Translations under genes and position numbers: made by a program | Assembly (NCBI GenBank): GCA_020446945.1 | Contig: JAGRDS010000013.1 | Location: 1-64,000 of the forward strand | Reading direction: 5' to 3' | Length of the DNA: 64,000 nucleotides | Origin: Parvularculaceae bacterium | Lineage (GTDB): Bacteria; Pseudomonadota; Alphaproteobacteria; Caulobacterales; Parvularculaceae | Notes under the pieces: model-generated | What the model was told of the DNA's origin: nothing | Database searches by the model: none | What the model saw: the letters and a program-made list of their open reading frames with translations, nothing else | In this document: positions 15,926-21,995 of the stretch, piece after piece | Position numbering within the stretch: position 1 is the first letter of the stretch | Layout: each line of letters begins with the position of its first letter

Positions 15926-16000
<75 letters not shown>

Positions 16001-16080: not shown

Positions 16081-17613
16081 TCAACAAAAAAGGCCGAGGC
16101 GCTGCAGATCGGGCAGTCTTTCGGCGCGGAAGCCGATTTGCGCTTCACTCAAATAGGCCCGGAACCGTTCAAGCGACATTATTTCCCGGCCGCCATCCGA
16201 TCTAACGCCGGCGCCTTTTTCTTCGATCAGCGCCCACGCGGCCTCGACGTTTTCACAGGCCATTGATGTCAGAATAACCCGGTCGCGCAATGCGAGCGGC
16301 ACGCAGTTGCCAAGGCTTCGAGATGGAAACGGCTGCGGTTTTTCATATCGAAGCGATTCGAAGAGGATCCGCTTTTGCTGCGCCGAAAATACGGGGTTCG
16401 CCGCGCCGCGAGGCTCAGCGAGCGCAGCCGCGCTGAAACCGATCAATCCAAGTGCGAACAGGCTTCTTAATATGCGGCGCGCCGCTTCCGCGCCCGCGCC
16501 TACGCTCATCCGGTTGGCCATCAGCCCGAACGCAACCTCTCCATCTGCGACCATATCAAGCGCGAAATCAAAGGCGGGATCGGTGAGATCAACGGCGACG
16601 CGCCCCGATAGCGCTTGACGCGGCCCCTTGTGATCGCGCCCGGCAAGCCCGCGCACGAAAAGTCCTTGCAACACATCCGGCTCAGTTTCATCGGATGAAT
16701 CGCCATGGGGCTTCACAAAAAGATCCCAGCGCGAACCGGCGTTCACCGCCAGATTAACAAGTTCCTGCCAGACGATCGGATCGTTCCGGTTTTCAGCGAC
16801 GCTGGACATACGGCGCGCAAGTTGCGGCTCCAGCAGGTCCGGGCATGCGTTCATTTGCGGACGCAATTGCGCGACAAAGCCTAGACCGGCCCGCCGAAAT
16901 TCCTCAGCGACCTGATGAAACCAGACGCCGGCGTAATCGGCGTTCAATATATCATGAGCGAGATAATCGGGATCAGCCGCGAGTTGTTCCTTCAAATGTT
17001 CTCTCGCAGTCGGGTTGACCTTGTTGAAGGCGAGGTCCGGCGCGTCGATTATGTGTGAAACCGCCGAAAGCGCAGACACGATGCGCGCCGAACTGGCTCC
17101 TGACGCCCTTCCGGCGAGAAAAGTTGCAAGCCCGTCCGTGGTAAGTCGGCTGGCGGATCCGGGCATGCATCGATATTGCAACGCGCATGCGCCGCCGTCT
17201 TTCAATCCGCCCGCAATGATGCACGCAAGACGACGTCGCTTTTCGGCCGGCAGCCACGAATAGACGCCGGAGACCGCCGCAAAATCCAACAGGGGAAGAT
17301 CGCCGGAATTCATCGAAAGAAAATCGGCTTCGATGAACTCGACATTTTCAATCGAACAGCTCGACGCGAAAGCGCGCGCCGTTTCAATATGCGCGCTATT
17401 CATGTCGACGCCGAAAAACTGCGCCTCGGGATAGCACGCGGCGACGAGGGCGAGCGTCAGCCCCTGCCCGCAGCCATAGTCGCAATATGTGAACCTTCCT
17501 TTGAAGTCGCGACGGACCCCGTGAAGGGCTGCGACGGCGGATATGTGAATCGGCGCCTGTTGCGGCGAAAAGGTCGCGGGAAACGAAACATCCCTGGTGT
17601 AGGCGCTCGTCAT
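16081..17613 (-). CDS. SAM-dependent methyltransferase with methyltransferase regulatory domain
   Basis: 510 residues from ATG 17613 (upstream in-frame codons lack family similarity). The N-terminal Rossmann-fold part has the SAM motif YCDYGCGQGLTLALVAA (near residue 43) and FFGVDMNSAHIETARAF, then an acidic EADFL step. The middle part (about 215-300) resembles the predicted methyltransferase regulatory domain found in bacterial lysine methyltransferase-like proteins, and the C-terminal third is a winged-helix-like region (MSVGAGAEAARRILRSLFAL). The substrate is unknown; protein lysine methylation, or methylation of a cell-surface molecule, is possible. It stands alone between tRNA-Thr and the structured intergenic region. 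Confidence 0.75.
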   Translation of the reverse strand: MTSAYTRDVSFPATFSPQQAPIHISAVAALHGVRRDFKGRFTYCDYGCGQGLTLALVAACYPEAQFFGVDMNSAHIETARAFASSCSIENVEFIEADFLSMNSGDLPLLDFAAVSGVYSWLPAEKRRRLACIIAGGLKDGGACALQYRCMPGSASRLTTDGLATFLAGRASGASSARIVSALSAVSHIIDAPDLAFNKVNPTAREHLKEQLAADPDYLAHDILNADYAGVWFHQVAEEFRRAGLGFVAQLRPQMNACPDLLEPQLARRMSSVAENRNDPIVWQELVNLAVNAGSRWDLFVKPHGDSSDETEPDVLQGLFVRGLAGRDHKGPRQALSGRVAVDLTDPAFDFALDMVADGEVAFGLMANRMSVGAGAEAARRILRSLFALGLIGFSAAALAEPRGAANPVFSAQQKRILFESLRYEKPQPFPSRSLGNCVPLALRDRVILTSMACENVEAAWALIEEKGAGVRSDGGREIMSLERFRAYLSEAQIGFRAERLPDLQRLGLFC

Positions 17614-17729
17614 GATGTGTTCCGGATTGCCAATGGTCCGGGCGCTTATAGCCGCATTTGGCGTCGAGAAAGCCAAGCCCGTCGCCAACAGGGATCGTCA
17701 CGCAATCTTCATGTTACAGACATGCGCGC

Positions 17730-17911
17730 GTCGCATCCGGCGAATAGACGAATTCGCGGCAGGATCGACGCCAAATGGCGACCGCCGCCAGAACGATCCA
17801 GCCGGCGCCGTCTCCGCCCGACCGGCGTCACTCGTCTTTAGGACGGGCCCGAGCCCGTTCGCCTAAGTAGCGCGTAAAGCCGGTCCTCCTCCCTGAGGGC
17901 CGGCTTTTTTT
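17730..17911 (+). ncRNA. Candidate small RNA with a CCTCCTCCC anti-Shine-Dalgarno loop and intrinsic terminator
   Basis: This lies in a 359-base gap (17614-17972) with no convincing protein gene. On the plus strand there are nested stems: GGATCG/CGATCC (17762-17767 with 17794-17799) enclosing CGCC-AAAT-GGCG; an 8-bp hairpin GGACGGGC-CCGA-GCCCGTTC at 17841-17860; and a terminator hairpin AAAGCCGG/CCGGCTTT followed by a T-run to 17911. The terminator loop carries CCTCCTCCC (17885-17893), the motif that marks alphaproteobacterial 'cuckoo' small RNAs as I remember them. The 5' end is a guess, no promoter is clear, and known members usually carry more than one such loop. Confidence 0.4.
17876..17911 (+). 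terminator. Intrinsic terminator without an upstream protein gene
   Basis: AAAGCCGG at 17876-17883 pairs with CCGGCTTT at 17899-17906, the stem extending further by CCTC/GAGG through a G-U pair, and seven T in total end at 17911. The nearest plus-strand gene upstream is tRNA-Thr, almost 1.9 kb away, so the terminator must end an otherwise unrecognised transcript, or sit in the 5' leader of the repeat-protein gene at 17973. Confidence 0.75.
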
Positions 17912-17972
17912 CGCACGCCTTTTTTCCGCCCTCGCTATCCGGTCTGTTGGCGCGCCGCGATGGAGGTTATGC

Positions 17973-18272
17973 ATGGTAGAACCGGCGATATTGATTCCCC
18001 TGCTTCTCGCAGCCGCGCCAGGCGCCGACGATTGCGCGCTCAATGGCGTTCCCCTTCACGGGCGGGTCCAGATTGTCGAGAGTTTCCCGGATTTCGAGGT
18101 CAGCATCGTGGACCGTTTTCCCGATCTCAGGGTCAAAAAGACGGACAGTTTTCCCGATAATTGCGGCGAATGGCGGTTCGTCGACAGTTTTCCCGATTTC
18201 ACTATCCGTTATGTCGACAGTTTCGCTGACCTGAAAATCATGTTCGTTGATAGTTTTCCGGGTCTTCCATAA
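17973..18272 (+). CDS. Small exported 11-residue-repeat protein, probable 7(1) septoil knot family
   Basis: 99 residues; TGGAGG lies six bases before the ATG. A hydrophobic N-terminus (AILIPLLLAAAPGA) looks like a short signal peptide. The rest consists of six units of the form V-D-S-F-P-D-x-x-V/I starting at residues 35, 46, 57, 70, 81 and 92, that is an 11-residue period with one 13-residue step containing CGEW. Cys21 and Cys64 are the only cysteines. The pattern, with NCGEWRFVDSFPDFTIRYVD in the middle, matches what I recall of the family named after its 7(1) torus-knot fold. No enzymatic function is known. Identical DNA in several units suggests recent repeat exchange. Confidence 0.65.
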   Translation: MVEPAILIPLLLAAAPGADDCALNGVPLHGRVQIVESFPDFEVSIVDRFPDLRVKKTDSFPDNCGEWRFVDSFPDFTIRYVDSFADLKIMFVDSFPGLP

Positions 18273-18408: not shown

Positions 18409-18816
18409 ATGACGAAGCGCAAGGATTCCGCCGACAAGGCGGTTGTTGAAACGAAAGAACTGAACCCGGTCGAGGCAATCCGCAAAGGCTGGCTCGCCTA
18501 TCTCGGCGCCTATGGCCTCGCATTCGAGCGCGCCAGGCCGGCATTCGCCAAGCTGAAAACGAGATATGCGGATCTGATCGAAGACCTCGTCGAAAAAGGC
18601 GAGGAAGTCGAGACGACGGCGAAAGAACAGTTCGTCGATGCGCGAGACCGCGCAAAAGGCGTTTACGGCGCCGGTTACGAAAAAGTCCGCGCTTTCATTC
18701 CGGCCCGCGCCGCGAATGATCGCGTCAAGGAGCTTGAAGCCGAAGTGGAAGCGCTGACGCAAAAACTCGCGGCGGTCAAAAAGCCGGCCCGCACGAAGCG
18801 CGCGAAAGCGGCGTGA
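18409..18816 (+). CDS. Phasin family protein (PHA granule-associated)
   Basis: 135 residues from the ATG at 18409. The helical N-terminal part NPVEAIRKGWLAYLGAYGLAF is the phasin signature shared with the PhaI/PhaF group, followed by a coiled-coil-like region (RVKELEAEVEALTQKLAAVKK) and a lysine/alanine-rich basic tail (KPARTKRAKAA) recalling the DNA-binding end of PhaF. Phasins coat PHA granules in the cytoplasm and control their size and partition. The gene is followed by a strong terminator at 18861-18896, so it is a single-gene transcript ahead of the phaC operon. Confidence 0.88.
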   Translation: MTKRKDSADKAVVETKELNPVEAIRKGWLAYLGAYGLAFERARPAFAKLKTRYADLIEDLVEKGEEVETTAKEQFVDARDRAKGVYGAGYEKVRAFIPARAANDRVKELEAEVEALTQKLAAVKKPARTKRAKAA

Positions 18817-19006: not shown

Positions 19007-20686
19007 ATGTCGAAGTCGAGCGACGAACTTGGCGAACAGGCGGCTGAAACGCCGACGGCGCTCAACCCGATAATCGGCGTGCGCCGATCGGAACTCCTGA
19101 AATCGCTCGGCGTTCTGATTGGACACGCGGCGAAACAGCCAGCCCCTTTCGCCCGGCATCTCGCCAATTACGGCAAAGACCTTGTCGAAATCGTCAAGGG
19201 CGATAGCGAGATCGCGCCGGACGGAAAGGACCGTCGTTTCAAGGATCCGACCTGGCGCTACAATCCGCTTTACAAATACACGATGCAATCCTGGCTCGCG
19301 ATGCGAAAGGGATTCGAAGGCTGGATCGCCGATTCCGGCGTCGATGAAGCAGACAAGGTGCGCGCAAAATTCGTCCTCGATATTATCGCCGATGCGATGG
19401 CGCCGACTAATACGCTGATCGGCAACCCTGCGGCGATCAAGCGCGTATACGAAACGGGCGGCGCTTCGCTCGTCAAAGGCTTGCAAAATGCGCTTCACGA
19501 TATTCGCCACAATAATGCAATGCCGAGCCAGGTCGATGGACGTCCGTTCAAGGTCGGTGAAAACCTCGCGACGACCCCGGGAGCTGTCGTTTTCAAAAGC
19601 GAAATGCTGGAGCTTATCCAGTACGCGCCGACGAGCGAGGATGTTTACGAAATTCCGATGATGGTCGTTCCGCCGCAGATTAACAAATTCTACGCCAACG
19701 ACCTGTCCCCCGACAAAAGCGTCGTTCGTTTCCTGTTGAGCCAGGGCTTCCAGACTTTCGCCATATCCTGGCGCAACCCGCAAAAAGAACATGCGCACTG
19801 GGGGCTTGAAGATTATGTCGGCGCGCTCATCGAAGCGGCCGAGGCGATCTGCAAGATAACGAAATCAAAGCAGATCAACGTGTCCGGCGCATGTTCCGGA
19901 GGTATCACGACGGCAAGTTTTCTTTCGGTGCTGGCGGCGCGAAAGTCAAACCTTGTCAATTGTTTCACATTGCAGGTTTGCGTCCTGGACGGTCACAAGG
20001 AGGACAGCGAGATCGGCCTGTTCGTCACCGACGAGGCGATAGAGGGCGCGCGAAAATACTCCAGGAAGAAAGGCGTGCTTTCGGGCGACGATTTGTCGAA
20101 AACATTCGCCTGGCTGCGCCCGAACGATTTAATCTGGAATTACGTCGTCAATAATTATCTGATGGGCGACAGTCCGCCGCCATTCGACATACTTTATTGG
20201 AATAACGATTCGACCAACCTTCCCGCGCAGCTTCATTCTGATTATCTAGACATGTATTTCGACAAGCGTTTCGCCAATCCGGGCGAGGTCGATTTCATGG
20301 GCGGCGAGATCGATCTATCGAAAGTAAAACAGGATGCGTTTATGGTCGCCGCCGTCACCGATCACATCACGCCATGGCGCGCATGCTACAGGAATGTGCA
20401 TTTGTTCGGCGGCGAGGTGAAATTCGCGCTCTCAAACAGCGGCCATATTCAGGCGCTTTTAAATCCGCCCGGAAATCCGAAAGCGCAATATTTCACCAAT
20501 GCGGCGCTGCCGGAGAACGCTGACGAATGGCTTGCCGGCGCGCAGGCGCAATCCGGCTCCTGGTGGCCATTATGGACGAACTGGCTGGGCGGGCGTTCCG
20601 GCGTAAAAAAGCCGGCGCCGTCGAAGCTCGGCTCGAAGAAATTTCCCCCGATCTCCAAAGCGCCTGGCGAATATGTTTTCGGTTAA
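19007..20686 (+). CDS. phaC: Class II polyhydroxyalkanoate synthase PhaC
   Basis: 559 residues, the length of Pseudomonas PhaC1. The lipase-like box is SGACSGG with the nucleophile at Cys296; the general-acid/base residues fall at Asp452 (VTDHITPW) and His480 (SNSGHIQ), which are the same numbers I know for P. aeruginosa PhaC1. The enzyme polymerises 3-hydroxyacyl-CoA to PHA at the granule surface. Length, spacing and neighbours (phaZ, phaD and small phasins rather than phaA/phaB or phaE) indicate the medium-chain-length type. The ribosome binding site is GGAGGGATT. Substrate range cannot be read from sequence with certainty. Confidence 0.93.
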   Translation: MSKSSDELGEQAAETPTALNPIIGVRRSELLKSLGVLIGHAAKQPAPFARHLANYGKDLVEIVKGDSEIAPDGKDRRFKDPTWRYNPLYKYTMQSWLAMRKGFEGWIADSGVDEADKVRAKFVLDIIADAMAPTNTLIGNPAAIKRVYETGGASLVKGLQNALHDIRHNNAMPSQVDGRPFKVGENLATTPGAVVFKSEMLELIQYAPTSEDVYEIPMMVVPPQINKFYANDLSPDKSVVRFLLSQGFQTFAISWRNPQKEHAHWGLEDYVGALIEAAEAICKITKSKQINVSGACSGGITTASFLSVLAARKSNLVNCFTLQVCVLDGHKEDSEIGLFVTDEAIEGARKYSRKKGVLSGDDLSKTFAWLRPNDLIWNYVVNNYLMGDSPPPFDILYWNNDSTNLPAQLHSDYLDMYFDKRFANPGEVDFMGGEIDLSKVKQDAFMVAAVTDHITPWRACYRNVHLFGGEVKFALSNSGHIQALLNPPGNPKAQYFTNAALPENADEWLAGAQAQSGSWWPLWTNWLGGRSGVKKPAPSKLGSKKFPPISKAPGEYVFG

Positions 20687-21578: not shown

Positions 21579-21995
21579 TTGTCGAAAAAACCTGCGCATT
21601 CGACCGACACCGCCCGCAAAATCTGGCTCGCCGGCATCGGCGCCTATGGTCGCGCATTTTCCGAGGCGCAGGAAACCGTCGCTCGGCTGACGGGAGATTC
21701 GGCGCGCGTCTTTGACGAGCTCGTAGCAAAGGGCGAGGCGATCGAAAAACAAGTCGAGGAACGCGGACGTCAGGTAGCGGCGAAAGTCGCGCCGGGGGCA
21801 TTATCCTTCGACGATCGGATCAAACGCATGCGCGAGCGGATCGGTCTCGGCGAAGTGCAAGGCTCGCTTGCTGACGAGGTTTACGAATTGCGTCTGCGCG
21901 TTGCAGATCTTGAAGCGAAGTTCGAGGACTTGTCGCACCGCACCCCGAAGACTGGCGCGAAAAAGAAAAAAGCTCCGAAGAAAAAGACGTCCTAA
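21579..21995 (+). CDS. Second phasin family protein (PhaI/PhaF-like), TTG start
   Basis: 138 residues. The likely start is TTG at 21579, with AGGAGCTGACC immediately upstream. ARKIWLAGIGAYGRAFSEAQ is the phasin motif also seen in the 18409 gene; DEVYELRLRVADLEAKFEDL forms a coiled-coil leucine pattern; the tail is very basic (TGAKKKKAPKKKT). It lies ten bases after phaZ in the same operon. The two phasins are paralogues: this one is operonic and ahead of phaD, the other monocistronic. Confidence 0.87.
   Translation: MSKKPAHSTDTARKIWLAGIGAYGRAFSEAQETVARLTGDSARVFDELVAKGEAIEKQVEERGRQVAAKVAPGALSFDDRIKRMRERIGLGEVQGSLADEVYELRLRVADLEAKFEDLSHRTPKTGAKKKKAPKKKTS

Follow-up and report, generated by a model that had tools for sequence, protein, structure and literature searches.

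The 7_1 torus knot is, to our knowledge, known from a single solved protein, UU089.1 of Ureaplasma, which is also the most complex knotted protein known to us. The earlier note on this DNA had called a knot of this type the deepest; the proper description is the most complex. UU089.1 is reportedly strongly resistant to unfolding (Hsu et al., 2024). The protein (Q9PR55, Ureaplasma urealyticum) is represented by PDB entries 8IWA, 8IWB, 8IWC, 8JRM, and 8W68, and the title of 8JRM is 'Solution structure of a 7_1 knotted Q9PR55'. Brems et al. (2022) predicted a 7_1 knot for Q9PR55 and a 5_1 knot for its 112-residue homologue P73136, the latter type being that of an AlphaFold model (PMC9278004).

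The window was the whole stretch of DNA analysed, 64,000 nucleotides of a Parvularculaceae bacterium (contig JAGRDS010000013.1), and the features of the locus are collected in Table 1. The translation agreed with the 99-residue protein read previously, whose membership in the knotted family had been proposed in the earlier note. Against solved structures, phmmer returned only UU089.1 (8IWA and related entries) at an E value of 1.9e-7 over 31–88, and a 60-sequence family profile returned it as the sole PDB match at an E value of 7e-17. This relation showed that the family lead was right, and the sequence comparison supports placing the window protein in the UU089.1/Q9PR55 knotted family. The search against a named septoil-knot model of Pfam or NCBIfam gave no match above cut-off: Pfam returned one sub-threshold chance match to an unrelated family and NCBIfam none. 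The only library match was PHROG 6462 ('unknown function'), over residues 11–99 at an E value of 3.7e-30. Functional annotation of the family was absent from Pfam, NCBIfam, PHROGs, and PADLOC, and PADLOC, which covers anti-phage defence, had no match at E values up to 1.

Table 1. Features of the knotted-family locus in the window.
Feature	Position	Strand	Basis
ORF of the exported knotted-family protein with six repeats (99 aa and stop codon)	17973..18272	+	homology, purifying selection
GGAGG, ribosome-binding-like site, 6 bases 5' of ATG	17962..17966	+	read in sequence
Probable signal peptide, residues 1 to ~18, putative cleavage site	17973..18026	+	hydrophobic stretch
Cys21 codon, invariant partner of Cys64	18033..18035	+	spacing always 43
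Repeats 1-3, motifs at residues 35, 46, 57; strands 30-34, 41-45, 52-56	18075..18158	+	
Extended N-C-G-E-W-R-F step; no variation at G65 and W67 across the 91 aligned cores	18159..18179	+	
Cys64 codon, within the conserved C-G-E-W step that links repeat 3 to repeat 4	18162..18164	+	
Repeats 4-6, motifs at residues 70, 81, 92; strands 66-69, 76-80, 87-92	18180..18263	+	

The ORF is a real, conserved gene under purifying selection. Its open frame contained a single possible start. Comparison with relatives gave dN values of 0.15–0.29 and dS values of 1.0–2.4, and the dN/dS ratio was about 0.01–0.24 overall and 0.01–0.12 between near neighbours. These ratios were well below 1 and hence supported the coding status. 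The antisense strand was also open throughout in the same codon register, and the conservation was that of the plus-strand reading. The Rfam and tRNA scans gave nothing at the locus, their only result being a tRNA-Thr at 15926. A terminator-like hairpin followed by a T run was located about 60 bases 5' of the ORF (window 17887–17912), with no annotated gene or RNA family directly 5' of it. Farther upstream, a methyltransferase gene with a MethyTransf_Reg domain (PF10119; window 16081–17688, minus strand) was divergent from the knotted-family gene.

The motif [VT][DE][SR]F[PA][DG] occurred six times, at exactly the positions noted previously (residues 35, 46, 57, 70, 81, and 92), and the spacing was 11 residues except for 13 at the CGEW step. 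None of the 100,000 shuffles of the window protein contained two or more matches. The units combine a predicted beta-strand with an S-F-P-D turn, six strands in all, in keeping with the UU089.1/Q9PR55 family. Ninety-one cores, which were chosen for having the cysteine pair, were aligned. Counted from the first cysteine onward, they had a common length of 79 residues, apart from a few whose C termini differed by one or two residues in either direction, and the cysteines were 43 residues apart. L28, G30, V35, V46, C64, G65, W67, D75, P96, and G97 were invariant. In one divergent relative (L126:7785-8123), longer STGL/ALAD-type loops took the place of the SFPD turns while the cysteine pair and CGEW were kept, and the repeat loops may vary more than the main family suggests.

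Cysteines were present at residues 21 and 64, as noted before. In a wider count of the family, both were present in 92 sequences, both were absent in 7, and a single one was never observed. Two complete phage members that apparently lacked a signal peptide (L029 and L123) had neither cysteine. Three others (L025, L026, and L033) retained the signal peptide and lacked the pair. From the constant spacing, the joint retention or loss, and the absence in L029 and L123, we infer a Cys21–Cys64 disulfide in the exported form, for which the indirect evidence is strong. A cytoplasmic form may also exist, as both of these phage proteins (L029:7884-8225 and L123:5772-6011) apparently had no signal peptide and had neither cysteine. 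The short signal peptide described previously was found in part: the N terminus was hydrophobic and close relatives had more classical signal peptides, whereas that of the window protein itself was weak, being short and without basic residues. The AlphaFold2 pLDDT was below 50 at residues 13–18. Taken over the family, the N-terminal sequences support export of the window protein. In three Spirochaetota members (L050, L060, and L065), the signal peptides ended near a cysteine, and these proteins might be lipoproteins.

The genome scan, with a profile from alignment A2 because alignment A1 was too diverse, gave at least 448 confirmed places, and 80 of these were retained. The gene was found in Pseudomonadota, Bacteroidota, Spirochaetota, Cyanobacteriota, Myxococcota, Ignavibacteriota, Chlorobiota, and Planctomycetota, a part of the loci being metagenome bins that are possibly misassigned. 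It was present in 37 of the 62 genomes of the window's own family, 51 of the 200 of its order, and 13 of 194 cyanobacterial genomes; a phylum sample, for which a narrower profile was used, matched in 5 of 299. The distribution among the sampled genomes was patchy. A second match in the window's own genome (G000:C28, 16 bits) lay opposite a transpeptidase-like ORF and was judged to be noise. Positive genomes carried one copy each (51/51 in the order, 13/13 in the cyanobacteria, and 9/9 in a further set). The tree of the 91 cores, built on a short alignment and with many weak forks, required 18 changes of phylum label against a minimum of 7, which fits horizontal spread.

The position of the gene ahead of a PHA operon, pointed out in the earlier note, was seen in the window, where the PHA synthase gene (PhaC_N, E 1.5e-60) starts at 19007 and a phasin gene (PF05597) at 21579; the link was confined to a few relatives. 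A small phasin-like gene ahead of phaC (window 18409–18816), which had no Pfam match, was conserved beside the knotted-family gene in close relatives. Conserved linkage to pha genes was absent outside this small group. Elsewhere, the neighbours were urocanase and 2-hydroxyacid dehydrogenase, peptide deformylase, PntB, UbiD, biopterin-dependent hydroxylase, glutathione peroxidase, and others, which were unrelated from clade to clade, and no gene neighbourhood was shared across clades. Hence, the PHA operon next to the window gene is coincidental and uninformative on function, and the gene most likely acts alone, without an operon partner, as judged from these gene contexts.

Copies in phages were also explored. 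About 17 of 2.9 million viral contigs carried the gene, and the phage copies mostly lay within or next to baseplate-hub genes. A viral scan with the alignment gave 13 loci, a scan with the single window protein as query gave nothing, and tblastn against a phage genome collection gave no match. In Leptospira prophages and an L. weilii plasmid, the gene was located between baseplate genes with a 4-base overlap with gene J. These copies (L034:7938-8252 and L027:5938-6252) were codirectional, just before gene J, and encoded a signal peptide, an unusual feature in a tail gene. Three copies (L031:5667-5960, L032:7884-8237, and L126:7785-8123) were antisense in the same slot between the baseplate-hub genes phrog_4930 and phrog_5233. 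The gene converged on a D-like tail protein gene (phrog_52) in L123 and on an Rz-like spanin gene in L033, and in L029 it was on the opposite strand to the nearby terminase and portal genes. The antisense copies are presumably expressed separately. From this placement and the signal peptide, the gene looks like an accessory cargo gene that is expressed alone.

The structures of the window protein and of a cyanobacterial homologue (L119) were predicted with AlphaFold2, and the pLDDT values were 92–96 for the core of the former and about 95–98 for the latter. In Foldseek, the window model matched 8IWA at an E value of 4e-6 with an rmsd of 10.1 Å in its register, and L119 matched at 3.3 Å over 68 columns (TMt 0.63). 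VIA-align placed residues 22–95 of the window model on residues 15–81 of the 8IWA chain (Z 7.2, 2.8 Å over 63 residues) with one 11-residue repeat skipped, and residues 36–112 of L119 on residues 12–84 at 2.4–2.6 Å over 65–66 residues. In both models, the C-terminal half was one repeat off from the sequence alignment (offset 14), with compatible identity counts. By sequence scoring, the plain register was ahead of the repeat-skipped one by about 13 bits (108 versus 96 before gap costs). UU089.1 may have lost repeat 4, which suits the structures, but the sequence scoring favours the plain register. A BFVD structure search gave no match with an E value below 0.001. The models support a knotted-family fold for the window protein, which would match the knotted core of 8IWA but take a different middle connection at the CGEW step.

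According to the explanation that we prefer, and to which we would give about an even chance, the gene product is a member of the UU089.1/P73136 family that works by itself outside the cytoplasm, a disulfide-stapled and resistant torus-knot module that serves as a binder or inhibitor. The chain would be exported unfolded through Sec and lose its N-terminal peptide. Three beta-repeats would be laid down first, and the chain would then turn at CGEW. Repeats 4–6 would be threaded and wound about repeats 1–3 to form a (2,n) torus knot of the 5_1 or 7_1 type, and the Cys21–Cys64 disulfide would close a covalent loop around repeats 1–3 and lock the threading. The product would be a very stable module that resists unfolding and proteases and needs no operon partner, and it would most likely bind or inhibit a target that belongs to the envelope, is secreted, or comes from phages. 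In favour of this explanation are the homology to the solved 7_1 protein, the confident models that fit 8IWA at 2.4–2.8 Å with one repeat skipped, the rigid core with paired cysteines, the lack of both cysteines in the two complete members apparently without a signal peptide, the single copy per genome, the low dN/dS ratio, the unrelated neighbours across clades, and the antisense copies in phage tail modules. Export and the fold are supported by these data; the disulfide, the folding order, the stability of the window protein, and the target are what we infer. Against the explanation, the signal peptide of the window protein itself is weak, none of the observations singles out a target, and the libraries give the family no functional annotation.

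The models fitted 8IWA only when one repeat was skipped; thus, the path between strands 3 and 4/5 would differ, and a winding may be gained or lost. One winding gained or lost is the difference between the 5_1 and 7_1 types of Brems et al.; therefore, either type may apply to the window protein. Moreover, AlphaFold is blind to topological barriers (PMC10672856), which adds caution. Homology to 8IWA by itself does not prove a 7_1 knot. By our estimate, a 5_1 knot in the window protein falls a little short of an even chance. The proposal of the earlier note, that the same fold carries exactly the 7_1 knot of UU089.1, is possible but doubtful. At about 40% identity, the sequence register spans the entire knotted core (27–83) of Q9PR55, the in-register alignment scores somewhat better, and about 65 residues across the core superpose on 8IWA. 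Nevertheless, the skipped repeat and the different strand path in both models do not suit it, and P73136, which probably has the same six-repeat form, was published as 5_1 (PMC9278004). Whatever likelihood the 5_1 and 7_1 types leave would go to another knot type or to none.

A bolder reading, which we consider rather unlikely, is that the torus knot (5_1, or less likely 9_1) of the widespread exported six-repeat form differs from that of the Ureaplasma protein, that the form becomes a cysteine-locked lasso after Sec export, and that it acts as phage cargo on the envelope. If true, several torus knots would occur in one natural family, differing by one repeat and the threading, and phages would have, beside the baseplate hub, a cargo gene whose product acts on the envelope.

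The most concrete rival to the stand-alone module is a phage-related role. The gene would have originated in phages, coding for a periplasmic protein of superinfection exclusion or for one associated with the tail; prophages would have spread it, and the chromosomal orphans would be domesticated copies used against phages. The Leptospira prophage copies that overlap gene J, the antisense copies between hub genes, the L123 copy that ends beside a D-like tail gene, and the patchy distribution are consistent with this origin. However, the viral contigs with the gene are few against at least 448 genome places, PADLOC gave no match, and no phage genes were seen beside most chromosomal copies, which makes the reading distinctly improbable. 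It is more improbable still that the six-repeat form is truly an unknotted two-coil beta-solenoid or roll, with knotting confined to a few members. The 11-residue V-x-x-V repeats would suit a solenoid as well, and the blindness of AlphaFold to topological barriers (PMC10672856) leaves room for it; on the other side, the models fit the knotted crystal over the whole core at 2.4–2.8 Å, the published P73136 model is knotted (PMC9278004), and no solenoid was among the PDB matches. A function of the protein in serving PHA granules is hardly conceivable and was rejected on gene context: the gene adjoins the phasin-like gene and phaC only in the window, G007/L042, and L114, with the phasin-like gene alone adjacent in L074, whereas export is implied by the signal peptide and the two cysteines, the gene lies elsewhere in other members of the genus, and the neighbours in other clades are unrelated.

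The hundreds of relatives of this exported type, with a nearly constant core length and with cysteines lost only as a pair, would allow several questions to be posed: how a single repeat can shift a torus knot from one type to another, how knotting of a chain proceeds once Sec has exported it, and what purpose such a protein has.

Compared with known systems, the window protein resembled PHROG 6462 over residues 11–99, and all eight phage members tested matched; PHROG 6462 was built from phage and prophage proteins, whereas the window copy was in no visible prophage. The Knotted Solenoid fold (PNAS 2026, PMC13123833; Brevundimonas group) likewise comprises small knotted beta-repeat proteins of alphaproteobacteria with no assigned function, but it is a dimeric 3_1 beta-solenoid, and no sequence or structure match to the window protein was found. 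UU089.1 shared about 40% identity over the knotted core and the repeated V-x-S-F-P-D units. It differed in its length of 89 residues, in having no cysteine pair or CGEW in the part compared, in a two-residue insertion in the middle, in the lack of a final SFPGxP, and in a structural fit that was reached only by passing over one repeat of the window protein. P73136 is a homologue of Q9PR55 whose length of 112 residues (PMC9278004) fits the six-repeat exported form of the cyanobacteria found here, and it is probably the same form. Among the published homologues, it comes nearest to the window protein in length. The family is widespread in bacteria, occurs in some phages, and carries no family name, and the window protein is a further member of an already known knotted family.
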